Origin: Stygiolobus caldivivus
GTDB taxonomy: Archaea; Thermoproteota; Thermoprotei_A; Sulfolobales; Sulfolobaceae
Length of the DNA stretch: 64,000 nt
NCBI RefSeq assembly: GCF_019704315.1
Contig: NZ_AP024597.1
Span: 186,001-250,000, forward strand
Direction: 5' to 3'
Shown here in pieces: positions 38,763 to 61,717 of the stretch (position 1 is its first letter; each line of letters opens with the position of its first letter). The notes under the pieces are model-generated. The model was not told the DNA's origin and made no database searches. It was given only the letters and a program-made list of their open reading frames with translations. The position numbers were made by a program, and so were the translations under genes.

Positions 38763-39698
38763 TTACAAGTGATATTCGTTTAAGTATTCTCTCCAGTACG
38801 TGCCTTCCATCATCGGGTTTAGGACTCTTATATAGGGGCCGAAAACTAGCGTATCTAATACTTTATCGTGTATCTGCCTCACCTCGGGATGTATCAGTAC
38901 TCTGCCAAGACCAAACATTAAAGCATTGGTATCACTCCATTCCGTGTGGACTATATACCTTTGGGGCCTATTCCTGAACTCGGGGGCCTCGTATATGGTA
39001 ACTGGCTCTGGTACGTCCATTCCGTTTGCAGTCTCTAATATCTGGTGGAAGCCCTTAGCGTTAAGCTGTAGACTCCCTAAAGGTGAGACCCCGATTTCTT
39101 TGAGTATCATACCTCCTAGAAAACCTGGGGCAGACCTGAAGGCCTCTAAAGTCTTTATAGCATTTTCCTCAAATTGGCTTTCTAACCCCTCTTTTACTAC
39201 GTGTTCACCAAACGCTACCACTCTTTTGCCGTAGGGCTGGGAGATCGGAGGGATCGAAACAGCTTCGCCTGAAGCGAACTTCTTACCTACCATTACTGTG
39301 AAGTCTGTCATCTCCGTGTTTAACGGCATGTTTGCATACACTATCTCGTATAAGGGTTCATAAGGCCCCCAGATCATCTGGTCGGAGCACTGTAGACATA
39401 ACCTGAATAAGTTAGCCCAGTTCTGTCTGTGCATCTCTTCGTGGTCTTTCCAATGCTTCCAAAACGTATACTGCATTAACGTTAAGCTGTGCATCTCTTG
39501 GCTCATCTCCATCTTTGCTCCTCCCCACCTAGTCCCTAGCGGCACTGCTCCTATTTGTACATGGTTCTGAAAACCTACAAAGCCGGGGTGTCTAGCTGTT
39601 ACCATACAGACCTTCGGACCTACTTTGCCAAAAAGCTCTAGTGTCTTAGGATCATTCTTAACTTCTGCCATGTTTATAGCTACATATGGTTTAGCCAT
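38763..39698 (-). CDS. sor: Sulfur oxygenase reductase
   Basis: The 311-aa protein matches the cytoplasmic enzyme that disproportionates elemental sulfur with O2 to sulfite, thiosulfate and sulfide without external cofactors. The non-heme iron ligands are in place: H86, H90 (in D-H-E-E-M-H) and E114 (G-P-Y-E-P). The three active-site cysteines C31, C101 and C104 are also present at the numbering known from Acidianus ambivalens. Length is as usual (308-312 aa), and the enzyme forms a hollow 24-mer. No maturation genes exist for it. It is divergently placed relative to the gene at 39855, with about 155 bp of AT-rich sequence between them. Confidence 0.96.
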
Positions 39699-44298: not shown

Positions 44299-46284
44299 AT
44301 GCAAGGGGGATTTGTAATTACAGTCCCACAGTTCGCTTCGCTAGTATATATAACCGGGATGATGGCGATAAACTTCTTTATCCTTTACACTGTCCTCAGG
44401 AAGGAATACGTTAATAAGAGGGCCGTATTCTTCCTCTCCTCGCTAATACTTTACATGGGAGTTGAGAGCCTAGCGTTTGGCTATATAGTCTTCTACCACG
44501 GTAAGCTCTTAATAGAGCCTGTCTTACTCCTCTTAGCTTCAGTCCCGTTATTGCTCTCAGCATCGGTCAAAAGCGAAGTAATAAGGGTTAGGGGAAATAA
44601 CGTAACTTCTCTACTCTTATCCCTCTCAGTCGTGTTTGACGAGTTCAGCATGGGGTACCTTTACTCTTCAGCTTTCGGCCCGCGGGCGTTCAACCCAGTA
44701 ATTGACGCCGTGAGTAACATAGCCTTCGGGATAATGATGGTGATTGACGGTATATTCTTCCTGTTGATTAGTAGGGTGAAGGACATATTTGAGGTCTCTT
44801 TCGCTACTTTTGCGATTTCTATGGCTTTCCTACCCTCAATATTTGTGCAGTTCTCTAAAGAGATAGAGCTGATAGCCTCACTATTGTCTACAGCAATAAT
44901 GGTCGTTAATATCATTACGCTCTACCTGATAGTCGTTAGGAGAGTTAGCTTTAAAGGAGTACTCGTGAGCCTAAGTCTGGCGGCTTTCGACTTATTTATG
45001 ATGTTAGGGTTGACGACTTTTGCGGTACTCAGTGACATGTGGGTAACCTCACTTTCAATACTCACTTCAATGGTCTGGTATTTTATCTTGGTCATCAGGG
45101 ATATCCCGGCTAAAAAGGTAACTTACACGTTAAAGTACCCGTTCTTATTCCTTATACTGGTAAACCTGACGGAGCTAACTATGGGTTTCGGAGAAAGTGT
45201 ACTGGGGTTTAATATAACCAACTCGTTGTTCGCAATGACGACCAGTCATATGCACTCCATGATGCCAACTTCAATGTCAGGAATGGGTAGTTCAGCTCCA
45301 ATGATGCACATGATGAGGAGCCCGCTCAGTAACCCTTTCTGGTGGCTCTTCCCCATTAACCCCTTAGCTATGGGGCTCATGTTTTTACACGCCACTCCCG
45401 ACCCGTTCTTTAACTTATTTATGACCTCTTTCATGCTAGTGATGTCTGCGACTATGAGCCCCTTCTATGTCATCATGATGGGGGCTGAGATGGCTTTCTT
45501 GGTCTATGAGAGGTTTAAGGTAGCGAGGACTTCACAAGTGAAAAAGTGGGCGTTAGTGATCCTAGTCGGGATCCCGCTCTTCGTAATAGCTATACCTTAT
45601 TATACAAACTTTTACGTATTCGGTATGAGCGGGATGATATTCCCAGTCTCGTTATTGCCATTCGTCCTGTCGTTAGCCGCTGTAGCACTGGCGTCTACCT
45701 TGTTCGGTAGGAGGGCTTATTGTAACGCTGTATGTATGTCAGCCCATATGTGGACTAACGTATTCTATGACCAATTTAAGCCTAAAAAGTCTAGCAAGGT
45801 TTGGGATTACTTGAGGTGGTTCTTCCTTGTCCCTATGGTCGTGGCTTTCTCCCTATACGTCGCAATGGAAGTCCATATGTGGTCGCCCCCTAGGATAGGT
45901 ATGACTACTCTTAACCCGCTGAACTTTTACGGTATGTTTGTGCTAAACTATATCTGGTGGTTCTTTTACTTCCTTACACCAGTATTCGGGGCTTACAGCT
46001 GTGCAAGGCAGGGTTGGTGCGGTTTCGGGACTTTTGCGGGAGTATTCAACAAAGTCCTGTTCAAGGTAAGGGCAAGAGACGTAAACACTTGCAGGTCCTG
46101 CCAAGCTAAGAGCTGTGAAAGCGCTTGCCCAGTGAAAATACCGATATCTACAGACATACTACAAAAAGGTTATACTAATAGGGTTTCTTGCGTGGGGTGT
46201 GGTGACTGTGTCGAAGCATGTCAATATGATAACCTAACTATTGAAGACCTTATGAGTAAATTTAGACATAGCGTGAAGACCTAG
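44299..46284 (+). CDS. Polytopic membrane Fe-S protein with Met/His-rich segment
   Basis: The 661-aa product has about 14 membrane helices. Residues 313-339 form a loop very rich in Met and His (M-T-T-S-H-M-H-S-M-M, then M-M-H-M-M), as in proteins that handle copper. The second half resembles NapH/NosR/CcoG-type electron carriers: C475-x3-C479, C568-x5-C574-G, then a cytosolic tail with C598-x2-C601-x4-C606-x3-C610-P and C631-x2-C634-x2-C637-x3-C641, enough for two [4Fe-4S] clusters. It probably passes electrons between a cytosolic donor and the membrane or outer face. The first half is not recognised, and fusion of the two parts is unusual. Its own promoter suggests independent control. Confidence 0.7.
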   Translation: MQGGFVITVPQFASLVYITGMMAINFFILYTVLRKEYVNKRAVFFLSSLILYMGVESLAFGYIVFYHGKLLIEPVLLLLASVPLLLSASVKSEVIRVRGNNVTSLLLSLSVVFDEFSMGYLYSSAFGPRAFNPVIDAVSNIAFGIMMVIDGIFFLLISRVKDIFEVSFATFAISMAFLPSIFVQFSKEIELIASLLSTAIMVVNIITLYLIVVRRVSFKGVLVSLSLAAFDLFMMLGLTTFAVLSDMWVTSLSILTSMVWYFILVIRDIPAKKVTYTLKYPFLFLILVNLTELTMGFGESVLGFNITNSLFAMTTSHMHSMMPTSMSGMGSSAPMMHMMRSPLSNPFWWLFPINPLAMGLMFLHATPDPFFNLFMTSFMLVMSATMSPFYVIMMGAEMAFLVYERFKVARTSQVKKWALVILVGIPLFVIAIPYYTNFYVFGMSGMIFPVSLLPFVLSLAAVALASTLFGRRAYCNAVCMSAHMWTNVFYDQFKPKKSSKVWDYLRWFFLVPMVVAFSLYVAMEVHMWSPPRIGMTTLNPLNFYGMFVLNYIWWFFYFLTPVFGAYSCARQGWCGFGTFAGVFNKVLFKVRARDVNTCRSCQAKSCESACPVKIPISTDILQKGYTNRVSCVGCGDCVEACQYDNLTIEDLMSKFRHSVKT

Positions 46285-47496: not shown

Positions 47497-48276
47497 TTAC
47501 TTCCCCTCTTTCCTCTCGACCATCCTCATCTGCTTGGGCGGTTTAGGGAATAAAGTCCTGAAATGGAGGGCTAGGGCTAACGTCGTAACGGGGGGTAAGA
47601 ATATATACGCCAAGAATAAAGCGGTCTCTCCACTGGGTACAAAAAGGAGGACATTAGCTGCAGGGATAGCTGTAGCTAGTATTAAAGGTATCGAAACACA
47701 ACAACTCCCCCCTGCGATCACACCCATTACAGGGGCGACCAAGATAGCCCTAACCTTTATGAACTTTGACATGTCTAGTACCCTCAGGATAGTAGCTGTT
47801 ACTATCCCGCCTATTAAAAACCCCATGGATATCGAGTAGAAAGTCAGTTCTAAGAAGAAATTAGGGGGGAACCCTAGTGCCAGGCTAGGGTTAAAGAGCA
47901 AGTTAATTAGCGTGGCGTAAGGCCCACCGGGGTAATAGGGTGACACGTTAAAGGAGACAAAGGAGCTACTGATACTGAAAAGTTGGCCGTAAATTGCAGT
48001 TAAAAGCCTTTCCAAAGCTATGCTATATACCACGTAATGAAATGTCAGATAAATACCATATATTACGTAACCCTTACCCGTGATATTCCTTGTCAGGTAG
48101 TTAAAAACTCCCTTTAACGCGCTTTTAAAAAGTAAAGACAGTAGCGATGACCAGAACAAAAAGTTACCAAAAATTACATAAACAGAATAGCTGTCGGAAA
48201 ACGGAGCGAGGTACACCAAAATAAGACCTATGACCATAAAAGGGACGTAATAAAAGGGCTTGACGGAACTACCCAT
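47497..48276 (-). CDS. Polytopic membrane protein with Gly-Gly-Ser-Cys-Cys motif
   Basis: The 259-aa product has about seven membrane helices and a basic, Lys/Arg-rich C-terminus. A vicinal Cys pair lies in a late helix entry (V-I-A-G-G-S-C-C-V-S-I-P), followed by a segment of Ala/Leu and a P-S-G-E-T turn. Such a pair could bind a thiophilic metal or undergo redox. No family recognised. The arsenite oxidase genes lie next on the same strand, upstream by 711 bp, so co-transcription is unlikely. Confidence 0.6.
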   Translation of the reverse strand: MGSSVKPFYYVPFMVIGLILVYLAPFSDSYSVYVIFGNFLFWSSLLSLLFKSALKGVFNYLTRNITGKGYVIYGIYLTFHYVVYSIALERLLTAIYGQLFSISSSFVSFNVSPYYPGGPYATLINLLFNPSLALGFPPNFFLELTFYSISMGFLIGGIVTATILRVLDMSKFIKVRAILVAPVMGVIAGGSCCVSIPLILATAIPAANVLLFVPSGETALFLAYIFLPPVTTLALALHFRTLFPKPPKQMRMVERKEGK

Positions 48277-48987
48277 AAGTGTAAATCGTCTTAAAAATAA
48301 ATAAAGTTAATTTTATTCAGTATAAGAATAGCTATAAGGGTAGGGATAAAAATGGAACCCCAACACCGGTAGCTTATATTTGGTGAACACCAGATACTAA
48401 TGGGGTCGAGAATAACATGTATTAAAAAATCGTGGAAACCTCGTATTATAATAAATAATAGTTTAGTTTAATAACTTATCTACTCTATTCTACTAATAGC
48501 TTAATTTGCATAGCCTATTACGTTTAACGGTCGAGGACCCAGTGCTCTAACGCAAAAGCATGTGATAGCTGTCGCCTAACAGGTGAAAACGCCTCAGACG
48601 TAAGGCTTTCACGTAAAACCTTACATGAATAATGGCTAACTTGTAGGCATGGCCAATTCCATCAAGTTAGCGTGCGGTCTAAGACACTTCATACCATAAG
48701 CCCTTATCCTAGAATTATAGGGTACTTGTGCTTAGTTTACTTTAGATAATTAGTTTGATATCTAACTATTCATATATATTTTGCTGAAAGATCATTAATA
48801 ATTGGTTTATATACTAAAAAGCTATAACCGTCTTACCTTTATTTTTCAATCTCTATGATAAAATTTATGAAGCAAAGAGGATTTGCATAAAAGGCTATTG
48901 GGATAAAAATAAAGAAACTTATGATAATAAAAACAATATAAATAAAATTTAAGGGAAAGAGGAGAAAAAAGTTGACTTAGAAGGTTG
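48277..48987. other. Non-coding region with two small hairpins
   Basis: At 48636-48670 an 8-bp stem (ctaacttg / caagttag) encloses a 19-base loop. Just before it gtaagg and ccttac pair around a ttcacgtaaaa centre. The latter resembles the palindromic start of R1. Nothing that looks like a gene is present. The region separates aioA from the membrane protein gene. Confidence 0.4.
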
Positions 48988-51900
48988 TCACGAACTACTG
49001 GGTATGTTAAACTGGACTGGGGCAAATGTTATCTGCTGTTTAACCTCTGCGGGTAACGTCCCCACTTTGACTATATTAGCCCACGTCCACTTGACCATCT
49101 GGTTATCAGTCACTGGGTCTACGGTAGGTGTCGTTAACTGGTTAGCGCCCGGCGATGTCGGGTATGCCATCGCCACAAATACCGAGCCGGGGGCTACCGT
49201 ATTCGATATCCACACTACACCGGTTAACGTACCCCAGTCATTATACAGCATTATTATGTCACCGTTTTCTAGACCTTCATTTGACGCGTCCTGCGCGTTC
49301 ATGGCAATTATCGGGAAAGGTACCCTACTGTATATCTCCGGGACTTGATAGTCAGTCCACCCTGACTGGAAGATTATGTTCCACCTGCCGTTATTTACCC
49401 AGTACTTGTACTTATTCTGTTGCTGAACTGCATAACCGAATATCCCTACATACGGCATCGGGAACGGGTTCAACGTGTTGACTACGGCTGCCTTTAGCGT
49501 GTCATATGAATAGCCGAACATGGACTGGACTTGGTCGGGAGTGACGTATATTATATCCCTCGTTATTAACGGTAAGACCGTATTACCAACGGTTATCGCG
49601 TTATTACAGTCAATTGTGATCTCTTCTACCCTGAACTTACTGTGTAGGACAGGCTCGAAGTAGTTCACTAACCCGTATAGTGTAATAGTACCTCCTTGTG
49701 AACAGGCTTGCGCGACAGCTTCTCTGGTCATGGACGAGGGGCTACAAACGGCTCCGGTACACGAGGCACCTAAGATTGGTACCTGAACTCCTATTGTCCT
49801 TGCTAGCCATAGGTAGTAAAGCTGGGTCTGGGATGGCGTAAACACGAAAGGCGCGTGAGGTATGAAGAACCCGTATGGCCATACCGATGCTATTTTGCTA
49901 CCGGCATTCGCTACATAGTTACTCCAGATATCGCTGTATATACCGAACCAGTTATAGTCGAAGTAGTTCTCCGAGTACTGGGGTATCAGCGTTAGTGGCG
50001 TGGAGTTCTGCTTCATGTTATTAGATAAGGAAGTCCATATGGGGTTGAACGCGTTATACAGCCTCTGTGCTTGAGGTGAGTTCTGTTTACCCTCACTCTG
50101 GTATAACTGGTATATCCTGTAAGCGATCATCGCATATACCCACACATCAGGCATCGCTATACCGGGCGGTGGCATAAACGGCTCTACTAGCCTCAACCTC
50201 CTATCGTGACCGTCCCACCTCAGTTCGTACGTCTCTCCGTGGTTGGCCGCGTGTGGTATCAAGACGTGAGCTGCCGTCTCAAATAACTGGTTCTGGTTTA
50301 GTATTATATCACTACCTACTACGAACAGTGCACCGGGAGTAGCGTTAGAACCGCTCAGGCACCCTATTACTGCTTCTGCATACGTGTCAGCGTCCGGGAA
50401 GTTGGGTATTGTAGCACTTACAGCACTCGTGTTATAGTACGGTGAACTGGAAATAATCGAACTCTCACTTTGCGAAGGCACTCCTAAGGACAATACGTTC
50501 TCTACACACTCTTGCAACAAGTGGGCCCTGTGGTTTATAGCTAAAGCCAACTTCCCTCCTGCCATTGTCAGCTTGTACGGGACTGCCGTGAACACCCACA
50601 GTACCTTACCGTAACCACTGTATATCAGGTAGTCTATTACCGGGTTATACTGGTATATCTGCGGTACTAGAGATTTGGTATACTGGTTGTAGAAGTTGGT
50701 TATGAAGTTCGCTACGTTTTGGGCGTTAACGGTCATCCCTTGAGCTTTCAGTTGCTGGGGGACATAACTGCTCATTTGTATCCATAACATCCTGCCCTTG
50801 TTTAACGGCAAATTCAAGTCCTGATACCATGGTGGTGGTGGAGGTAACGGGAATGCTCCTCCTCTCTGGTGACCGAAACCTGTTGATATACCGGTACCGG
50901 GTCTACCTGACGTGGCACCTACTATTACAGCTAGGTCACCTAAAGCATATATTGGTGTGTAGTTACCTGACCATATTACCCCTTTCTCGAATTCGATCAG
51001 GACTCTCTTATAGTAAGCAGTACCGTTACTCCCCATCTTGGGTTTGGCTAACATATCGCCCATTAATTGGATAATGTTAACAGGTACCCCGGTCTCTGAG
51101 GAGACTTGTTGTAGTAAGTTACTCAGGCCTCCAGCCTGACTTATCAAGTTCTGCAAATACTCTGTGTACAAGTTATAGTTGTCTGTTACGAAGTTAAAGC
51201 CGTTCGTCGTAGCTGAAGAGCCTTGGTATATCTGTTGCACGAAGTAGTTTACAGTGTCCGGGTATGTCTGATAGATATAAGCCGCTACACCGTTGATCAG
51301 CAGAGTATCAGTACCGGGGTTGACCAGCACCACTAAGACTTGTGGTTCTCCGTTACTGTCGACGTTACAAGTACCGCTCATAGCTTGCTCTAAAGTACAC
51401 CCTACTGCTGCTGCTGTAGCGTGTGCAGTCTCTGATGGCCTAGCCTCAACTACAATCGCTTTCCCAGGCGGAGTAGGTTCACCGGGCTCAAACCAAGTTG
51501 CCTTCCTCTTTTGTGTAACGCCTCTTAAGTTATCGAAGATGTGTTGAATTAGATTTACTGTGGAAGTAACGTATTCATTAATCCCGTACATCACCATTAC
51601 ATCGGTTATACTTATATCTAACATGCTAGCCGTATCGGTACCATTACCTCCTGTCAACTCCAATAATGCGTCCTCTGTCAACGAGAACGCTACCTGGTAG
51701 TGGAACCTCACAAACGGGGTCGCAACGCCCATGTGTAGTAATAGTCCGGGCATCAGGTTACTTACTATTCCACCTCCTTGTCCGCCGCCGTGGTCAGCCC
51801 TTATCGCCATCACTTGCAGTGACCCTGGTCCCACTGGGTCGGGGTAGGGGAAAGTCTCGTTGTCCATGTAGTACTTCAAGACTTTAGCTAATACCTCTAT

Positions 51901-52482
51901 AATATAGCTCCACCCTACGGGCTGTAGCTGTCCGCTCCACCTCACTAACGGTTCTTTTATCCTGGTCTGGTACTGCCTGAACCCTGCTGCGTTATCATGG
52001 AATGGGCTCCATATCCTCTTAGCGTTCCTCCCTCCTCTGGTAGAATAATTTCCTTGGTTTACAGGACATTCAGAGCTAGGTATCTCAAGTATATAGACAG
52101 GCTTCCATGTACCCGTAGTCTCGTCATATGTGACTGTCTTACTTACCATCCCTTCTCCTATCCACGGGATAGCGGTAGGTGGATTTGCCGATAACGGATA
52201 TAAAGGCTTTGTATAGTCAGCATAATGTCCTTGTAAGTTATAGTCGTATACTTTATCAATGTAGTTATACACTATTGCGTTTTGCCCTGCAGCAGGCCCT
52301 CCTTCTTCTCCAACAGGGAATACGAATACGTCATATCCACACCCTACATTGCAGAACCTACATGTCAAGTGGTACCTCTGAGCGGTCACTGGGGGTAGCG
52401 GCACTTTAGTGTTGGGTGCCCCGTAAACTGAGGGACCTGTTGCGGGGGTCACACTACTGGTTGAAGTAGAAGTGGAGGACAT
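48988..52482 (-). CDS. aioA: Arsenite oxidase large (molybdopterin) subunit
   Basis: The 1164-aa protein is a DMSO-reductase-family molybdoenzyme. Near its start it has C41-x2-C44-x3-C48 ([11 protein letters not shown]), the [3Fe-4S] site pattern of arsenite oxidase, and lacks the fourth Cys expected for [4Fe-4S]. The following R-I-W-S-P-F-H-D-N and [11 protein letters not shown] segments are typical of the AioA pterin-binding region. It oxidises arsenite to arsenate and passes two electrons to the Rieske subunit. It is clearly longer than bacterial AioA (about 820-850 aa), apparently through insertions. It has no signal of its own, so export with AioB through Tat is likely. Its ATG overlaps the aioB stop by 1 nt and has a ggtgag ribosome site. 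Confidence 0.92.
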
Positions 52483-53138
52483 CAGCTCTCACCCATAGGG
52501 GAAGATGATGCTTGTGCAGCTGTGTTATATGTACCATAGACTAGCCTGTTAAACCCTACTGCATAAATGTCCCCAGTAGACTCGTCATATTCCAATATCA
52601 GTTGAGGTAAGAACTGGTTAGGGTGACCTACTACTTGCATACCTCCCGCCGTAGCGTCGTACTGTGAGAAGTGCTGTGGACATAACATACACCTTGTATT
52701 AGGATCGTATTCTAAAATATAACCCATGTGTGCACAATATGCGCTGTAGCCTACCACATCTCCGTTAGGTCCTACACCCCCTACTGATGGGACCCCGGTC
52801 CTGACTATATATACCGTATATCCCATGTAATTCGTAGTTATCGGTGTACCAACTTGTAGTTGACTATAATTAGCTACTTTTTGCCTTACATATGCTACTG
52901 GAACTGAGACAGGAGGTGCTGTAGTAGAAGTAGTAGAAGTTACTGTTTGAGTGACTGTAGTAGTGGATGTTCCTATCTCCTCTTTTACAATCGAAGAAGT
53001 AATCGGTTTCTCTTCCACTGTAGTCCTAGGGAAAGCGTTTCCGCCTATCACTATTCCAGCCGCTATTCCGGCTATAGCGGCCGCACCACCTATTATGACT
53101 GCACGCCTATTGGAGTCTACACCCTTATCCTTGCTCAT
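52482..53138 (-). CDS. aioB: Arsenite oxidase small (Rieske) subunit
   Basis: The 218-aa protein starts with a twin-arginine signal ([10 protein letters not shown], then an Ala/Gly/Ile helix, residues about 9-33), followed by a Thr-rich linker and a Rieske domain. The [2Fe-2S] ligands are C135-x-H137 (Y-C-A-H-M-G-Y) and C153-x2-H156 (L-C-P-Q-H-F). The subunit takes electrons from the [3Fe-4S] cluster of AioA and passes them to a soluble or anchored acceptor, here probably the sulfocyanin next door. The start has a ggtga ribosome site 10 nt upstream. A tttatattta box 25-35 nt upstream may be its promoter, and aioB-aioA form one transcript. Confidence 0.9.
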
Positions 53139-53375
53139 TTATATATTCACCCAAGCTATTATAATGTTAAATATAAATGATTAAAAAACTTAATTAGCTA
53201 AATAATATATATGCTTAGACATACATATTTATTAAAAAATTTTATTTATTTAAATCAGATAATGCATATTTACTAAATATTGTATTAAGCTTAATAATGA
53301 TAAAAAAGATTTTAAAAAATCTATTATAAAAAACAAAATAACATTTTTATAGTTTATAAATGACCATTAAAGGTC

Positions 53376-53900
53376 TTTAGCTTGTCATTATTATGTATGG
53401 TGTTGTTACTGATGTTGATGCTATTATTGTCCCCCACATCCCTGCTGCTGCGTGTCCCGGTACTCCGCAGGCGAACCAATATATCCCAGCGGGTAGTGTT
53501 ACGGACGTTGATGCTGTGGAACCGGTCGATATCCCTGTTTCATAGTTTGTAGGTGTACCCCCTGCTACAGCTAGGATCTTACCGTCATTACCTATATTGT
53601 CAGTAGGTGTGGCAGTAGTGTTCTGCAATATCACTACGTCGTGGTTTAGCGGGGCATAATTAGTATAGATCACGATTAGGGTCCAGCCAGCAGGGATATA
53701 AACGTGTATAGTGTCATAATCAGTACCGTTATAATTTATCGGGTCACCGGAGCTCGAGGAGTCCAAGTAGAGGAAGACAGTCTTATTAGACGGGTTATAA
53801 GGCATCTTTATAGCACCGGGCGGAAGAGTAGAAGTTGTAGTAGAAGTCGTCGTGGTAGTAGTAGTTGTAGTAGAAGTCGTGGTAGTAGTAGAAGTTGTCG
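53376..53900 (-). repeat. 525-bp inverted repeat, left copy
   Basis: By eye this segment is the exact reverse complement of 57936-58460. It covers the Thr/Ser linker, the whole copper domain, the stop codon and two further bases of a sulfocyanin gene. Outside the borders the sequences differ completely. Confidence 0.9.
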
Positions 53901-54033
53901 ATACACTCACGGGTGGAGGGTGATAAGCATGAACCGGATAATACGTGATACTATAATTATATATTAGGAATCCTGCCATAAAAATTGTTCCCGCAAATAT
54001 TAACACTAGAATAGCCTTTCCTATGGCTGTCAT
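53377..54033 (-). CDS. Membrane-anchored sulfocyanin-like blue copper protein, aio-proximal copy
   Basis: The 218-aa product has an N-terminal membrane anchor (about residues 5-27), a Pro/Ser/Thr linker with long Thr runs (about 45-72) and a cupredoxin domain. The type 1 copper ligands are H131 (L-N-H-D-V-V), C189, H194 and M199 in [11 protein letters not shown], the sulfocyanin pattern. It probably carries electrons outside the membrane. It lies 239 bp upstream of aioB on the same strand, but its gene is oriented toward aioB. It has its own tttttttaaaact promoter box and a gatga ribosome site. The copper domain appears identical to that of the copy at 57779; only the anchor differs. Confidence 0.88.
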
Positions 54034-54220
54034 TTTTCATCAAAAATTTAGTTTTAAAAAAAGAGTATTTATTTTTAACTAAACTCTACAATAATGAATC
54101 ATTTCTTTTTTAAAATTTATAAAATAAAGCAATAATTAACTATTAGTATGATATTTCTTCAATATTATTTCTATGTTATATTATTTCTTTTTATATCTCT
54201 TTTCTTTAGGTATTAACCCC

Positions 54221-55039
54221 GAGTATAGAGATAGTGTCGTCATTAAGCTATTTATATTTGTATAAAACGAGTATTACTTATGGGTAGGAACGGTAATTAG
54301 GTAAGGTTTAGCGTGTCCCTCTTGTGGTAGTCACCACGTCGTTAAGTGCGGTAAGCCTCTGGGTAGGCAGAGGTTTTTGTGTAGGGATTGCGGTAAGTAC
54401 TTCCTTACAAATGCAGTTTATCACCACCACTCCAAGGAGGCACTACACGCTTCGCCTCTAACAAACTTGGGTTTATAACCGTGGGAGTTTGAGGGAGGAG
54501 ACTTTAAGGACGTATGCTAATGGCATGAGGGCTATTTCTAGGGTGCTTAACGTTCCTTTGGGTACTGTTCTCACTCGGGTAAAGCGTTATGGTGTGCAGG
54601 AGTAGGAGGAGGCCGTGGACTTGTGGGATAAGGCTCAGTCAAGGGTAAAGTCGTTACTTTTGACGAGATGTTGACGTACTTGTACAGAAACGCTGGGGCT
54701 TTCCTACAAGTCACTTGTCACGTGTACACGAGTCTCGGGTTTTTACCTAGTTTACTCTGTGGGTGATAGGGGTGAGAATACTTTCGTGAGGTCAAGGACT
54801 ACTTGCCAGACGACGGTAGGTTAGTGATGATATGGCGTTTACTTTCGGTTAAAAAACCACACGGTGGTAGTCTTACCGGTTAACCCCCAACGGGTCACTG
54901 AGGGATAGGCTTGTCAAGAGGGGGAAGAAGGCTGTTAACAGGAGTATAAATATGGTGGAGTATTTCATAGTGCTGGCCTCATGGGAGAGAAGGCTAATCC
55001 CAGAATTTGTAGCTTAATGACGACAATATCTCCACTCTC
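54221..55039 (+). mobile_element. Degenerate IS1-like element (copy 2)
   Basis: The ends are imperfect inverted repeats (left gagtatagagatagtgtcgt, right, reversed, gagagtggagatattgtcgt), about 819 bp apart. Inside are pieces of the IS1-type transposase seen in copies 1 and 3: C-P-S-C-G-S-H-H-V-V-K-C-G-K-P-L-G-R-Q-R and C-R-D-C-G-K-Y-F-L-T, then after an interruption around 54450 a helix-turn-helix-like part and later fragments. Stops and frameshifts make it inactive. It lies between the two sulfocyanin genes. Confidence 0.7.
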
Positions 55040-55239
55040 ATCTGCAGTATAGAGTCGCTTTTTGCCGCTAAGACATGATGTTCTCTAACCTACACCGTCA
55101 CTCCGTAGCGAGATTCCTTTTACTAAATAATTTATTACTTATTAGTAGCACAAGGGCTAGATAATAATTGCCATTAAATTAGTATGTAACTAAGTTTATT
55201 TTTTTAGCTTTCTCTACAGTATATAGCTAAAATTAAATC

Positions 55240-55254
55240 AAAAACTTTTAAAAC
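55240..55254 (+). promoter_or_regulatory. BRE/TATA element of the 52-aa membrane protein
   Basis: The sequence aaaaacttttaaaac ends about 21 nt before the ATG at 55275, as expected for a leaderless gene. A near-identical element, gaaaagcttttaaac, precedes the oxidase subunit II gene. Confidence 0.5.
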
Positions 55255-55274
55255 TATATATTATTAAAAAAGTT

Positions 55275-55433
55275 ATGATGGCCATGTTATTCCCATTTGC
55301 TGTGGCGACATATGCCCCACCAAGTAGCATAGGTTTTGAGGACGTGTTTGGTTTTGGATTAGCAGCATTAGCATTCGCTTTCGGTGTAATATTTTTACTG
55401 TTAGTCAAAAAGAAGATAGTAAATATATTCTAA
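55275..55433 (+). CDS. Small single-helix membrane protein (52 aa)
   Basis: The frame begins M-M-A-M-L-F-P-F-A-V, continues P-P-S-S-I-G-F-E-D-V-F-G, and then has one hydrophobic helix of about 20 residues closing with K-K-K-I-V-N-I-F. It has good coding character, a TATA box at the right distance and no overlap with other genes. Its position between sulfocyanin and oxidase genes, and a promoter like that of oxidase subunit II, suggest a small subunit or assembly helper of the oxidase, by inference. Small one-helix subunits are known in archaeal oxidases. Start could be either of the first two ATGs. Confidence 0.55.
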   Translation: MMAMLFPFAVATYAPPSSIGFEDVFGFGLAALAFAFGVIFLLLVKKKIVNIF

Positions 55434-56085
55434 ATTTTTTAATATTATAAAGACTGAGTATAATACTACAAGTGGTTAGGCTGTAATTAATTCCTAGACG
55501 CCATTTAGAGTCAAATAAATAACATGTTACCCTAGAGCTAAGTTTCCTAACAAGTAAAATATTGAGTAAAATAATGGCTTACATTAGAATAACTAAATTT
55601 CTACTTTTTCTGAAATTAAAAGGTGTTAATACATTGAACGAATATATGTAATCTAACAGATGAAGTAGAAATCATACTTATTTATTTATATTAAATAAAA
55701 TAAAAATAGATTGAATAAATCAATTAGATTAATTTTTGAATATGTAGTTACCGTTATCAAAGAAATCACTTCACTTATTAGAAATTTTGTAATTAATTAT
55801 GGCGGTTGAACTTAGACCTCGAATTGGCTTCTATGAACAACCAGCTCTTTTTTGTGGTTTCTATTCGCCTTAATCAAGTGAGCCCCTAACTATTATTCTT
55901 CGGTCAATGTGTAGAAGGATAGAATATAACCCTTTTACGATAATGAAAGCCTCAGCGTATAAGAGTATAGACTCTTACCTTGAAGGAAGACATAACTAAG
56001 TATAAATGCAGGTTAAGCAATATAAAATGGCGTGATATCAAAAGGAGAGTACATAAAAGTGCGTGATAAGGAGGGAGTGTTGAGA
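55434..56085. other. AT-rich non-coding region
   Basis: No gene recognised. The T-rich run directly after the stop of the 52-aa gene is a likely terminator. The remainder up to the IS end contains nothing clear. Confidence 0.35.
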
Positions 56086-57251
56086 GTGTTCTCAAACAGT
56101 CACCAAATTCGAAAAGTATTTGTAAAAATATTAGAGTATTTATAAAAAATCTTTTTTATAGTGCGATTAACTGAAAAGAGCTAGAAGTGTAAAGGAAAAC
56201 ATTACTTCAGAGAAAAACTCATGTGCAAGGGTCACGAGGTTTATGTGGGGTCACTAGATGGACCTCGTAACCCTTGCACAACTAATACTTTTAACCCTAA
56301 GGGATTTAAATTTTAAGCCGAGAAAACACGAGCCGGAAGACCTTGCATACGCAATAGCAGCATACTTACTAGGAGTACAAGTCACCAAGTTAGGGACACC
56401 ACCATCAACACTATACTACTACACTAAAAAACTCGGGGTAAAGAGGAGGAGAGAAGAAAGACCACCGTGCCCCTCGTGCAAGTCAAACAGAGTAGTAAAG
56501 AACGGCTCATCTAGAGGAAAAACAAAATACAAGTGCAAAACTTGCGGGAAGACGTCCTACCAAGCGACCAACCACAAGATGAGCAAGGAACAAAAGGAGA
56601 GGGTATTGAAAGAGTACACGAATAGGATGAGCATGAGGGGGATAGCGAGAGTCGAAGGGAAACCGTTAACGACAATATACAGCTTTATAAGGAGGAAAGG
56701 GGTAGAAGCGTATGCTTACCTACTACTCTTGCAAGAACGATTAGAGGGTTTCACGGCAAAAGCTACAGTGCTCGACGAGAGTTGGACTTACGTGTGGGTC
56801 AGACATGGGCGAAAGGGGGTGGACTTGTGGATATGGAACGCGTTAGCAGATGGTGTGCCCTTCTTTATCACGGGTGATAGGGGTTATAGGACTTTTAGCT
56901 CCCTCCAGAACTCCCTACCCGAGAGTAGGGTGTACTACACTGATGGTTACTCGGTTTACCAAGTACTCGACAACCACGTTGTGGGTAAGGAGTATACTTA
57001 CACTGTGGAGAGTTATCATTACTTACTGTAGGGCCCACTTGGCTAGGTTGGCAAGGGACACGAGGGCTGTTAACAGGGACGTGGGGATAGTTGAGTATAG
57101 TCTAGCCTTGTTGAATGTCATGTACCCGGTAGTTTACTCGAGGGAGAAGACTCCGTTGAACGAGGCTTACTTGAAGGGGATACACTATATTAGAAATAAA
57201 CTGATATAATATTACAAACACTTCTCGAATTTCATGGCTGTTTGAGAACAC
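56086..57251 (+). mobile_element. 1.17-kb insertion sequence with long inverted ends
   Basis: The left end gtgttctcaaacagtcacca followed by aattcgaaaagta pairs with the inverted right end (gtgttctcaaacagccatga, aattcgagaagtg) over about 40 bases. Between them lies one transposase gene with a frameshift. Its size of about 1166 bp is close to that of ISC1173-like elements of Sulfolobus, but this was not checked. It belongs to a different type from the 0.8-kb IS1-like relics. Confidence 0.8.
56258..57209 (+). pseudogene. Zinc-ribbon DDE transposase, frameshifted near its end
   Basis: The first frame (257 aa) has a helical N-terminus, a zinc ribbon C-P-S-C-K-S-N-R-V-V-K-N-G with C-K-T-C-G-K, a helix-turn-helix (I-A-R-V-E-G-K-P-L-T-T-I-Y) and the first catalytic residues of a DDE domain: V-L-D-E-S-W, Y-Y-T-D-G-Y and T-V-E-S. 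The frame then ends in a stop at 57029. A second frame continues C-R-A-H-L-A-R-L-A-R-D-T-R-A-V-N and runs to 57209 with K-L-I-stop, the natural end of IS1-type transposases. A one-base change near 57015-57025 is enough to join them. Programmed frameshifting cannot be excluded, but its place differs from that in IS1. Confidence 0.75.
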
Positions 57252-57429
57252 CCCCGATAAGGACGCTATGATTTAGAAAATTAAGAATAGTCTCACATGA
57301 ATCATTTATTCATACACTGAATTATGTTAATTCAGTAGAGGGTATTATAATTTATAAACGACTCATTTAAGCCCTTATTGTTGGCAATTCATGTTTATTT
57401 TGTGATTTTCATTTGTCTAAGTATAGATA

Positions 57430-57640
57430 TACTATATAACTGTTAAAAATATTAAAACCAATGTTAAATCACGATAATTAATGCACGATACCACATAAAG
57501 GCGTAAAGCGACGGGTTTATAATTTAGTTTATACAGAATAATTATGATTATTCATATGCTAAATTACACTAATTTCGTAAAGAATATTGCAATTCATAAA
57601 GGAACCGTGAAAACCCCCTATTAGTTCATTAAAAAATTAT
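57430..57640 (+). repeat. Dispersed repeat R2, copy F
   Basis: The blocks aatgcacgataccacataaa, then ggcgtaaag, ttataatttag and ttcataaaggaaccgtgaaa follow the same order as in copies at 5290 and 38470. It lies between the IS and the second sulfocyanin gene. The rest of the 57252-57778 gap is AT-rich, with a ttttttaaaatg box. Confidence 0.5.
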
Positions 57641-57778
57641 AATAGAACAAATATTAAATAGTTTTATACAAAAATAAGGTTTTATATCTATCTTAACTTT
57701 TTTAAAATGTTCCTTCTTGAATCGATTTTTTAGGAAAAAATTTAATTAGCCAGAGTGAACAGTAAATTTTGAAACATC

Positions 57779-58459
57779 ATGGCTTCAAGCACTCCCATTG
57801 TTGTGGCTATAGTGATAGCAATAATACTAGTAGGAGTGGCAGTATACTATGTAGCTACTAGGCCAAGTATAACATCCACTACGACACTTCCGCCAACTTC
57901 AACTGTAATTACAGAAACTACGAGCTATACTGTGACGACAACTTCTACTACTACCACGACTTCTACTACAACTACTACTACCACGACGACTTCTACTACA
58001 ACTTCTACTCTTCCGCCCGGTGCTATAAAGATGCCTTATAACCCGTCTAATAAGACTGTCTTCCTCTACTTGGACTCCTCGAGCTCCGGTGACCCGATAA
58101 ATTATAACGGTACTGATTATGACACTATACACGTTTATATCCCTGCTGGCTGGACCCTAATCGTGATCTATACTAATTATGCCCCGCTAAACCACGACGT
58201 AGTGATATTGCAGAACACTACTGCCACACCTACTGACAATATAGGTAATGACGGTAAGATCCTAGCTGTAGCAGGGGGTACACCTACAAACTATGAAACA
58301 GGGATATCGACCGGTTCCACAGCATCAACGTCCGTAACACTACCCGCTGGGATATATTGGTTCGCCTGCGGAGTACCGGGACACGCAGCAGCAGGGATGT
58401 GGGGGACAATAATAGCATCAACATCAGTAACAACACCATACATAATAATGACAAGCTAA
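57779..58459 (+). CDS. Membrane-anchored sulfocyanin-like blue copper protein, oxidase-proximal copy
   Basis: The 226-aa product has a different N-terminal anchor from its twin ([10 protein letters not shown], helix about residues 7-26), a longer Thr-rich linker (about 32-80), and the same cupredoxin domain with ligands H139, C197, H202 and M207. It is well placed to donate electrons to the CuA centre of the oxidase encoded 523 bp downstream on the same strand. Sulfocyanins do this in the SoxM complex of Sulfolobus. The two copies appear identical over 525 bp, including silent positions. Confidence 0.88.
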
Positions 58460-58460
58460 A
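57936..58460 (+). repeat. 525-bp inverted repeat, right copy
   Basis: The segment is the partner of 53376-53900. The distance between the inner ends is about 4.0 kb and includes both anchors, both promoters, two IS elements and the 52-aa gene. Confidence 0.9.
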
Positions 58461-58935
58461 AGTTGAATAAAAGCAAATATCTTTTTCTTTATAATTTTTG
58501 TAATTTTAGTTTTTAAAAAATTAACTATATTTCTACCACTCATACAAAATCAATTTGTAGACCATTGGGTACTCTTCAAAATCTCTATTCATCTCAGCAA
58601 AATAGTGTTTTATCGGATATTTGTACGCTAAGTAATATTAAAGGGAACAGTGAGTAAGATGGGCGATAAGGAGGTCATAACTTTAATCAAACAGAATACT
58701 TGATATATTGGGTTATGGGTCGTTCATGTCTCTATCACGAATTAAAATATCCCCTTGTGGAATTAGTATAATTCTACAATGGTTCTCTCTCACCAAATAA
58801 CCCGATATAATGATTATTGGTTTAGTTCTTCTCCTAATACCTAAAATTTAGTAATTAAAATATTTGCTTTTAGTTCAATCAGGATTTAAAAACTATTTAT
58901 GCTTTAATAATTAATGACAATTAAAAATAAATACT
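58461..58935. other. Non-coding region
   Basis: No gene seen. A T-rich stretch at 58480-58520 after the stop codon may be a terminator. Around 58740-58790 there are bases shared with R2 (gaattagtataattct), too few to call a full copy. Confidence 0.35.
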
Positions 58936-58952
58936 AAGAAAAGCTTTTAAAC
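58936..58952 (+). promoter_or_regulatory. BRE/TATA element of the oxidase operon
   Basis: The sequence aagaaaagcttttaaac lies 31-47 nt before the TTG start at 58983 and would direct transcription of the subunit II-subunit I operon. It resembles the element before the 52-aa gene at 55275. Confidence 0.5.
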
Positions 58953-58982
58953 TATTATTTGGATTAAAACTTTTGATCTAAA

Positions 58983-59534
58983 TTGTCCAGTGAGCATAGG
59001 GATTGGGAAAAGATATGGTTTTTCATCATGTTAGCCCTTGTAATCGCTTTTACAGGCTATACTTATGCGACTATAGCTAACGGGACTTCAGCGACTTACC
59101 GATACGGTTTACCGCTGGGAAGCGGGTTGCCTAAACCCTTACCAAACGGGACCCTAGTAGTGTATATGCTCGCTGTGCAGTGGGCTTTCATACCGCAAAA
59201 TGCCACAGAGATAATCTATGTCAACGGACATGAAATGAATATAAGCATGCCCCAAGTAATAGGCTATACTCAAGGATACAACCCAGGTCTTTCGGTACCG
59301 TATATCAAAGTCAACCCCGGTCAGCCAATAGTAATAGTACTATACAGTAATAACGTAGTCCACGGCTTTTACATAAGGTTACCTCACGGTACACAAAACT
59401 GGAACATAGTACCGGGTGTAAACAGTTACGCCTTTTTCTATGCACCTACCGTACCCGGAAACTATACGTTCCATTGTTCCGAATATTGTGGAGTAGGTCA
59501 TCCCTTAATGTATGGTTATATATGGGTGATGTGA
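58983..59534 (+). CDS. Heme-copper oxidase subunit II with complete CuA site
   Basis: The 183-aa protein has one N-terminal membrane helix (about residues 11-31) and an outside cupredoxin domain. All CuA ligands are present: H127 (V-V-H-G-F), C165-S-E167-Y-C169-G-V-G-H173-P-L-M176. It therefore accepts electrons from a protein donor, not from quinol, and fits with the sulfocyanin upstream. The start is a TTG; an in-frame TGA nine bases upstream excludes an extension. It ends one nt before subunit I. Subunit II proteins with a single anchor and short N-terminus are typical of B-type oxidases. Confidence 0.92.
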
Positions 59535-59535
59535 G

Positions 59536-61116
59536 ATGGTCAAACTCGCTCCAAAAACTAGTTTAGGTCTAGCCCTAGTTTATGCAGCAGGAGGAATATC
59601 TTGGTTAATAGCTATGGGGATAGCAGCACTATGGTTTAGGACTATACTACTGAACCCTAACCTACCGCCAAAAACAGAAGAAGCTGTTGCACCCCTATAC
59701 TATTTCCTCGTTACTTTTCACGGACAAGCAGCTATGATGATAATAGTCGAGGACTTGTCCTTTTCACTGTTTGCCTATGCGCTGTACAAGAGCAACATGT
59801 CCACTATCCACAATAAGTTATTGTATGCATTGTTCTGGTTGGTCAACGTACCTATGATAATAACTTTTGCAGGAGGGCCCAAGACTGGCTGGTACATGTA
59901 CCCACCTCTAGCGTTACAGAGCGGGTGCTGGCTGGAGTTCCATTCCAACACCCTAATTGGACTAGCGTATTTCATGATGTTCGTACAAGCCGTAGCTGTC
60001 ACGTTAACCGCACTCGTGATGTTTATAGACGCCCTTAAGACGAAGCCCAAAGAAGGGAAGATACCTATATTCGCTGCCTATGCGATGATGTTCGCAGGTG
60101 CGTTCATATTCCTTACAGAACCTGCCTTAGCTGCTGCGGAACTGTGGTACGTCTTATACTTCTGGGCAAACGTCCCAGTTAACCCGTTAACATGGGTGGT
60201 ACTGTTCTGGTTCTGGGGACACCCAGTAGTATACTATGTACCGTTCACAGTGTTTGGCGGACTGTACGCCCTAATACCACAGTTTGCCGGAAGGCCACTT
60301 TATAGTGAGAAATGGGCTAGGTGGAACATACTATTACTCTTCACTTTCGGTATGACAGCATGGGTGCACCACCTGCAGACATGGCCCCTACCGGTATACA
60401 TAAGGGCGTTCATTACCCCTACCACCTTAATACTGGCTGCAGGGTCGGGGCTGACAGTGTTAAACTTAGGACTGACAATTGCTACAGCTAAAAAGTACGA
60501 CTACAAGAACCCTGTAGGTTTTGCGTCATTAATAGCTTTTATAGGGTTTATACTGGCCGGGCTACAAGCACTAATATTACCTGAAAACACCTTAAATGTA
60601 CTAGTCCATAACACGTACTATGTAGTAGGACATTTCCACTTGATGATATGGACGATTATAGTCGTAGGGTATGTCGCTATACTCCTCGACATGTTACAAG
60701 CTAAAATGGGGACGTTAATGCAGTTATCCAATATAAGCAAGGGGATGGTGTTCGGTGGGTTAGGATTATGGACTGTTGGTGCACTAGGTGCTGGGTATAC
60801 CATGAGCTATGCAGGTTACATAGGACTGATAAGGAGGTGGGTATCATATCCGCCCTACTTCCAGTCCTTTATGGACGCAATATCTTACTTTGCAATGATA
60901 ATGGGGATAAGTTTTGCTATGTATGCGATCCCGGTAATATTTACTTTACTAAGGGTAGGTACGAGTATATTCTGGGTAAGCAGTGAGGCCCCATCTATGC
61001 CTGCAGGGACTAACATAACAATGAATAATACACCTACAGATACTCCGAAGGTAGACCACGCTAAAGACACCGTCAACCCAAATAGTTTTAAGGGTAATGA
61101 TAAAAATTTAGTTTAA
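59536..61116 (+). CDS. Heme-copper oxidase subunit I
   Basis: The 526-aa protein has about 12-13 membrane helices and all metal ligands: H62 (T-F-H-G-Q) and H368 for the low-spin heme, H366 for the high-spin heme (V-V-G-H-F-H-L), and H229, H278 and H279 for CuB. Y233 (G-H-P-V-V-Y) can form the His-Tyr crosslink. The A-type D-channel and the usual E of H-P-E-V are missing, so it resembles the B-type branch, which pumps fewer protons. It reduces O2 to water at the membrane. A ggtgat ribosome site lies in the end of subunit II. Together the two genes form a cytochrome c oxidase-like enzyme fed by sulfocyanin. No subunit III is visible. Confidence 0.92.
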
Positions 61117-61156
61117 TTAAAGTAAATTTTTTAAGGTATATCTCTTAATTTTTTTT

Positions 61157-61717
61157 ATGATTAAATTAAATCATAATGTCTCTAAAAAACCCCTTATTAT
61201 ACCCTTAATATTTATCCTCGCTTTTGTGAACCCCTACGTAGAAATACTCCAGTTTACGAACCCGATAGCGTATATGCTCGACCATTACGCGCTCTACGCA
61301 GCAGGGCTGATCATAGGTTACAAGTACTTCAGGGGGTCTTTTTGGTCGTTGCTGATAGGTGTTATACCCGCAGGTTTTTGGCATATACCGCTGTTCTTCG
61401 CGCTAGCGGCGTCTTTCTGGCAGTACAGGTTTCTATGCGAAGCCACCCTCCTCGTGGGGGGCATCCTAGCGGGGTCTTTTATACCCAAGATGTCGCTTGC
61501 ACAAAAATTAGCGGGACTAGCTGTGTACATGTTAGCAGATTCTATCCTTAGCATATTCTTTGTACTCGGCTACCCTCAATACTCGGATATTGACTACCCG
61601 TTTTTAGGTTGGAGCAATACTGAACTACCTCCAGTAGGGATAGCCATGTTCCTAGTTATGAACATAGTGTTGATATACAGCATATACAAGTTAATGAGGA
61701 ACATACAACTCTTCTGA
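61157..61717 (+). CDS. Polytopic membrane protein following the oxidase (DUF1404-like)
   Basis: The 186-aa product has five or six helices and conserved-looking polar residues in them: [18 protein letters not shown] and [10 protein letters not shown]. The His-containing helices could bind heme or metal. The pattern is close to DUF1404, found in Sulfolobales, as far as I recall it. It begins 40 nt after subunit I in the same direction and is probably part of the same transcript, perhaps as an assembly factor. The stretch between contains a T-run that could act as a terminator. Confidence 0.6.

Follow-up and report, generated by a model that had tools for sequence, protein, structure and literature searches.

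What does a protein do that carries a methionine-rich membrane domain and an iron–sulfur redox module on a single chain? The question is raised by a gene in the 64,000-nucleotide stretch of Stygiolobus caldivivus DNA that we analyzed (hereafter the window, always at its full length). To our knowledge, copper acquisition and oxidase loading in archaea of hot acid springs are largely obscure. The family described here is a concrete candidate for archaeal copper handling, found in bioleaching organisms, some of which have genetic systems. A review lists only one archaeal cupric reductase, the cytosolic CopZ (PMC7558416). Stygiolobus sp. KN-1 is facultatively anaerobic and uses either sulfur plus oxygen or hydrogen plus sulfur for growth (PMC8483694), and S. 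azoricus (G019), of the same genus, is an obligate anaerobe (PMC7067957). Our literature search returned nothing on the gene or its paralogues.

Results

Predicted architecture of the protein

The open reading frame at 44299-46284 (+) starts with ATG and is intact, bearing out the reading of the locus as one 661-residue protein in the initial annotation, which had been made from the sequence alone; the reverse strand across the same interval holds no long open frame. That annotation was right to call the product a membrane protein, but its count of about 14 helices should be 15, as predicted from hydropathy together with the alignment. The features, with the branch of the family to which the gene belongs denoted A-type, are as follows.

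44299..46284 (+): whole coding sequence, 661 aa, A-type family member
44299..45513 (+): N-terminal membrane domain, residues 1-405, about 11 helices, invariant Met/acid core, no known family
44641..44748 (+): first E-x2-M-G ... M-x2-D hairpin, residues 115-150, TM4-TM5
45172..45492 (+): second E-x2-M-G ... M-x2-E hairpin, residues 292-398, TM10-TM11
45214..45336 (+): outward loop (predicted sidedness), residues 306-346, with the Met/His-rich segment 313-339
45535..46281 (+): NapH-like redox module, residues 413-661
45721..45735 (+): membrane-side Cys pair 1, C475-x3-C479, next residue Met, not Pro
46000..46020 (+): membrane-side Cys pair 2, C568-x5-C574
46090..46221 (+): two [4Fe-4S] binding motifs, C598-C641, predicted cytoplasmic

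In the 15-helix model each predicted inner loop is richer in Lys and Arg than the outer loops; on average, with the tail excluded, the inner loops together hold 22.7 such residues and the outer loops 4.8. By the positive-inside rule, the N terminus and the Met/His loop would thus lie outside the cell, and both Cys pairs and the Fe–S tail inside; whether the Met loop faces outward had been an explicit question of the initial annotation, and the rule places it there. An AlphaFold model (three sequences) was unusable (pLDDT 35, pTM 0.22).

The N-terminal domain matched no family in Pfam, NCBIfam, PHROGs, or the PDB. For the C-terminal part, the best NCBIfam match is TIGR02163 (NapH), with an E value of 1.6e-10 and 40.9 bits against a cut-off of 213, so that the similarity of this part to NapH, as originally proposed, is real but weak and does not amount to membership in TIGR02163. 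The four membrane-side Cys (475, 479, 568, and 574) and eight cluster Cys (598, 601, 606, 610, 631, 634, 637, and 641) that had been counted in the single sequence are confirmed, all 12 of 12 being invariant in the orthologue alignment. The same holds for the motifs that they form, C-x3-C-M and C-x5-C at the membrane and C-x2-C-x4-C-x3-C followed by C-x2-C-x2-C-x3-C in the tail, which the positive-inside rule places inside; the protein ends 20 residues past the last cluster Cys. Judged by its sequence, the C-terminal half represents a NapH-type redox module that has diverged.

Orthologues, paralogues, and distant relatives

Of 31 Sulfolobaceae genomes, 24 have an A-type orthologue, at 52-78% identity; the A-type proteins form one fully supported clade in the tree. 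The gene is missing from G004, G005, G016, and G020-G023, of which we take G022 to be S. acidocaldarius. In G006, presumably M. cuprina, it is broken near residue 280 into two frames that overlap (L057), either as a pseudogene or through a sequencing error.

The source genome also encodes two paralogues, one B-type (633 aa) and one C-type (about 475 aa). The N-terminal domain of the B-type protein is homologous to that of the A-type over its whole length (hhalign E 3e-13) and has the same Met/acid core. Unlike the A-type, both paralogues lack the Met/His outer loop and the Cys at position 634, which in B-type proteins leaves the second cluster one ligand short; the C-type also lacks much of the N-terminal domain. 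After the B-type gene, three genomes carry a short stand-alone version of the N-terminal domain (E 8e-15 to B-type). Because this version exists, we conclude from the homologues that the domain is a separable module and the protein a true fusion of a membrane domain with a NapH-like module, much as the initial annotation had it. Whole-length relatives outside Sulfolobaceae are few, being found in two genomes of the same class and four elsewhere in the phylum, one of these last as a fragment; on plasmids we found no relative.

Methionine is the most conserved residue of the membrane domain

Among the A-type orthologues, 22 of 42 Met are invariant versus 19 of 247 Leu/Ile/Val/Phe (Fisher p 5e-11). 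As a control, SecY of these genomes has no such bias (3 of 10 Met versus 81 of 187 Leu/Ile/Val/Phe), and the B-type paralogue has the same bias as the A-type (22 of 34 versus 35 of 231). When A-type and B-type proteins are aligned with two sequences from other orders (35 rows), 44 columns are identical, of which 13 are Met, 11 are Cys, and 3 are Glu, with other residues in the remaining 17. Across a set of 16 diverse proteins at about 20% identity, made up of representatives and three more distant sequences, 41 columns are identical; Met accounts for 14 of these and Cys for 11. It is unusual for Met to be the most conserved residue of a domain, and this points to a function for its sulfur ligands. 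The claim that the protein bears a Met signature of the type used for Cu(I) is upheld at the level of sequence by the 22 invariant residues.

The invariant Met are also placed in a pattern. All six invariant membrane acids have an invariant Met at i±3 or 4 (expected 1.1, p 1.5e-4), and 13 of the 17 invariant Met within the membrane lie in its outer or middle part; with TM11 and M480/M484 the core continues toward the inner Cys pair. E-x2-M-G recurs in TM4 and TM10, and M-x2-[DE] in TM5 and TM11, which suggests that TM4-TM5 and TM10-TM11 are two equivalent hairpins. The motif symmetry is exact, and an hhalign comparison for internal duplication of the domain was not significant (E 0.02).

The second hairpin has the Met/His-rich loop as its outer turn. 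The loop's densest 27-residue stretch, residues 313-339, contains 10 Met and 3 His; the density first noticed is thus real, and the description of more than ten Met was a slight overcount. Given the Met content of the protein itself, at least 10 Met in 27 residues would arise by chance with a probability of 4e-6 per position, or about 0.003 across all positions; with the Met content of SecY the per-position probability is 1e-10. The segment that separates F311 from R340 varies from 0 to 51 residues among the orthologues. Taken over all of them, the loop is 33% Met and 10% His, compared with 6% and 0.8% in the remaining protein, and a Met/His-rich composition is kept in 20 of 22 aligned orthologues at loop lengths of 11 to 51 residues. 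The positions of the Met within the loop are not conserved, and the orthologues of G012 and G018 lack the loop, with no Met or His between the equivalents of F311 and R340. Conservation of the Met among homologues had been named as a test in the initial annotation; for the loop, composition survives this test and position does not, and a central role of the loop is not borne out. In the alignments the conservation signal is stronger in the membrane Met than in the loop, which looks like an accessory, putatively metal-gathering segment and not an active site.

Gene neighborhoods of the three types

A-type genes have little conserved context. In Stygiolobus the gene lies between those for a KaiC-like ATPase and a DUF72 protein; in Sulfurisphaera (G030 is presumably Sulfurisphaera tokodaii) and in G001 a DUF1404 gene is near, in Sulfurisphaera together with a gene for DUF929 (thioredoxin-like). 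The closest fixed neighbor, in five genomes, is a CISM reductase operon: the A-type gene is divergent from this molybdopterin operon in four genomes of the genus Saccharolobus (g7) and in M. yellowstonensis, and a nitric oxide reductase gene follows the operon in the loci that we read further. A 10-kb island that includes both the A-type gene and the operon (L052, L053, and L054) is 98.9-99.9% identical between M. yellowstonensis and two g7 genomes, an identity between genera that indicates recent transfer. SSO2801, considered as a sulfur reductase subunit, was rejected as such, being cytochrome b558/566 subunit A.

In none of the genomes read does an A-type gene stand next to an oxidase subunit gene. 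In 11 genomes (Metallosphaera, Sulfuracidifex, and Aramenus) the B-type gene immediately precedes COX1 in the same orientation, and in two genomes of family f34 a relative closes a COX1-Rieske-cytochrome b operon, where it overlaps the cytochrome b gene or comes directly after it. In G039 and G480 a relative is found beside DUF1404 and a homologue of the window's membrane protein at 47497-48276, a protein that elsewhere forms part of oxidase clusters, and one relative adjoins a ZIP metal transporter gene. C-type genes are grouped with genes for DUF929 thioredoxin-like proteins, VKOR, and CISM. In G009, which we take to be M. sedula, the C-type paralogue (L119) lies beside DUF929, VKOR, and TatA/TatC-like genes, a setting that hints at extracellular thiol redox chemistry.

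The A-type gene does not track CuA or sulfocyanin

The initial annotation had linked the protein to the nearby blue copper and CuA oxidase genes. Across the 31 Sulfolobaceae genomes, we found no significant association of the A-type gene with CuA, sulfocyanin, or sulfur-reductase-like CISM: of the 24 genomes with the A-type gene, 21 have CuA and 20 have sulfocyanin, and of the 7 genomes lacking it, 7 have CuA and 6 have sulfocyanin. G001, G003, and G019 have the A-type gene and neither a CuA nor a sulfocyanin gene, seven genomes have CuA and no A-type gene, and the A-type gene is missing from genomes with many copper proteins, G022 for example. The proposed link is not supported by this evidence, and the A-type gene does occur in genomes without CuA oxidases, a pattern of the kind that the initial annotation had named as refuting its idea. 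For the CuB site the check is uninformative, since COX1, being present in 31 of 31 genomes, cannot discriminate; the obligate anaerobe S. azoricus keeps the A-type gene in a genome with three COX1 genes. A tie to the oxidase cluster of the window was likewise considered and rejected: in Sulfurisphaera this cluster is far from the A-type gene. [NiFe] hydrogenase shows no pattern with the distribution of A-type genes. All 10 genomes with a close CISM relative have the A-type gene (Fisher p 0.066), and 14 A-type genomes are without this enzyme. A link to heme-copper oxidases appears one level up, among the paralogues and distant relatives. We conclude that the client of the A-type protein is not the CuA oxidase; that of the paralogues and distant relatives is probably the heme-copper oxidase encoded beside them.

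Discussion

Relation to known systems

NapH, NosR, and RdhC share a four-helix membrane module with two CX3CP motifs (PMC5928378). Like NapH, NosR, and RdhC (PceC), the protein has membrane helices with two membrane Cys pairs, and like NapH and NosR it then carries two [4Fe-4S] motifs, in a tail predicted to be cytoplasmic. It differs from all three in that its pairs read C-x3-C-M and C-x5-C and not C-x3-C-P, departing from the two-CX3CP pattern, in its extra domain of about 400 residues, and in having no FMN-binding domain. CcoG (RdxA/FixG), a cupric reductase of the polyferredoxin type that the cbb3 oxidase requires, is likewise a membrane protein with two [4Fe-4S] clusters and is encoded in an oxidase operon (PMC7558416), as are the B-type proteins and two f34 relatives but not the A-type. 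The studied protein is without the Ig-like C-terminal domain of CcoG, which YccM-type members lack too, and a Met/Glu membrane domain is not known from CcoG. With Ctr1, CcoA, CopA, and CusA it has in common Met in membrane helices and Met-rich outer segments. In CopA and CusA, Met is found with carboxylates along the metal path. Conserved membrane-helix Met, a trait of Met-rich Cu(I) transport proteins, is present here (22 of 42 among the orthologues and 14 family-wide); Pfam and the PDB gave no homology of the N-terminal domain to Ctr1, CopA, CusA, or CcoA, and unlike those proteins the studied one carries a fused Fe–S redox module. We place the family with the NapH/NosR/CcoG kind, as a variant that has not been described.

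Proposed function and its rivals

We propose, with a probability of roughly 0.4, that the protein is a redox-coupled handler of soft metal in the respiratory membrane, comparable to CcoG and equipped with a metal-binding membrane domain of its own; the metal would most likely be copper. What makes copper or soft-metal handling for respiratory enzymes a probable role is that Met is the best conserved residue and that relatives stand beside genes of oxygen respiration. The outer Met/His loop would collect copper or a comparable soft metal from the acidic surroundings, the Met/Glu core would bind or conduct it as Cu(I), and electrons passed by the Fe–S module from quinol or ferredoxin would keep or make it reduced, so that reduced metal could be loaded into respiratory metalloenzymes. 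To this extent the initial annotation was right in kind, in naming a Met signature, an Fe–S module, and a possible copper function. Several observations on the A-type branch count against the proposal: no oxidase subunit gene adjoins it in the genomes read, it does not track CuA or sulfocyanin, an obligate anaerobe keeps it, its most constant neighbor is a CISM operon, and two orthologues lack the Met-rich loop. A bolder version, which we regard as doubtful, would make the family a new class of redox-coupled metal conductor, in which a Met/carboxylate path of two hairpins is fed by the loop, the Fe–S module reduces the passing metal, and the whole supplies a missing step of copper acquisition for respiration in acidophilic archaea.

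The main rival is pure electron transfer: a NapH-like dehydrogenase of quinol (caldariellaquinone) or ferredoxin might supply respiratory reductases or oxidases with electrons across the membrane, and its Met core would serve not for metal but for packing, the binding of quinone, or electron relay. Many oxidoreductases have NapH-like proteins as partners, a module used again and again (PMC8238504), and the C-terminal module resembles NapH. The divergent CISM operon with its nitric oxide reductase in five genomes, the presence of A-type in 10 of 10 genomes with the close CISM relative (p 0.066), and the company that C-type genes keep with DUF929, VKOR, and CISM all speak for this reading, which suits the A-type gene context at least as well as soft-metal handling does. 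Yet the CISM association is not significant and leaves 14 A-type genomes without the enzyme, and electron transfer alone does not explain 14 invariant Met at 20% identity, their pairing with acids, or a loop that is 33% Met without fixed positions. We consider this rival possible, and tentative at best.

Two further readings turn on the Met themselves. The protein could be a transporter or sensor for another substrate, such as Ag(I), Fe(II), Mn(II), or a sulfur species, with the Fe–S module as a redox switch. Sites of carboxylate and Met are known also from Nramp and VIT-type iron transporters. The invariant carboxylate–Met pairs within the membrane, the one relative next to a ZIP transporter, and a host that grows on sulfur in hot acid are compatible with this, but the Met-rich core and loop favor a soft metal and we found no iron or sulfur gene link for the A-type branch as a whole, which makes it improbable. 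That the Met-rich loop reflects neutral drift or protection from oxidation, in a protein of otherwise ordinary function, agrees with its unconserved Met positions and its absence from two orthologues; set against the Met/His-rich composition of 20 of 22 loops of 11 to 51 residues and the invariance of the Met within the membrane, this is the least credible account, and a very unlikely one.

Other features of the window

A cluster at 47497-61717 comprises a CC-motif membrane protein, large and Rieske subunits resembling those of arsenite oxidase, a pair of sulfocyanins, a CuA subunit, COX1, and DUF1404. Sulfurisphaera likewise has the CC protein, the sulfocyanins, and CuA/COX1 in a cluster. The membrane protein (47497-48276) has a GGSCCVSIP motif and no Pfam family, and its homologues are next to CuA subunits in other genomes; in L117 and L136 they adjoin relatives of the NapH-like protein studied here. 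The molybdopterin subunit (48988-52482, 1164 aa) scores 349 bits, just below the arsenite oxidase cut-off of 359, and its substrate is therefore uncertain. A sulfur oxygenase/reductase gene lies at 38763-39698 (NCBIfam SulOxRed, 620.8 bits). The two sulfocyanin genes, 53377-54033 (-) and 57779-58459 (+), are inverted and share 524 bp of identical DNA that corresponds to the whole cupredoxin domain; their N-terminal anchors differ, and an apparent transposase ORF lies between them. Equal-scoring pairs of sulfocyanin genes occur in several other Sulfolobaceae, and such pairs suggest gene conversion.
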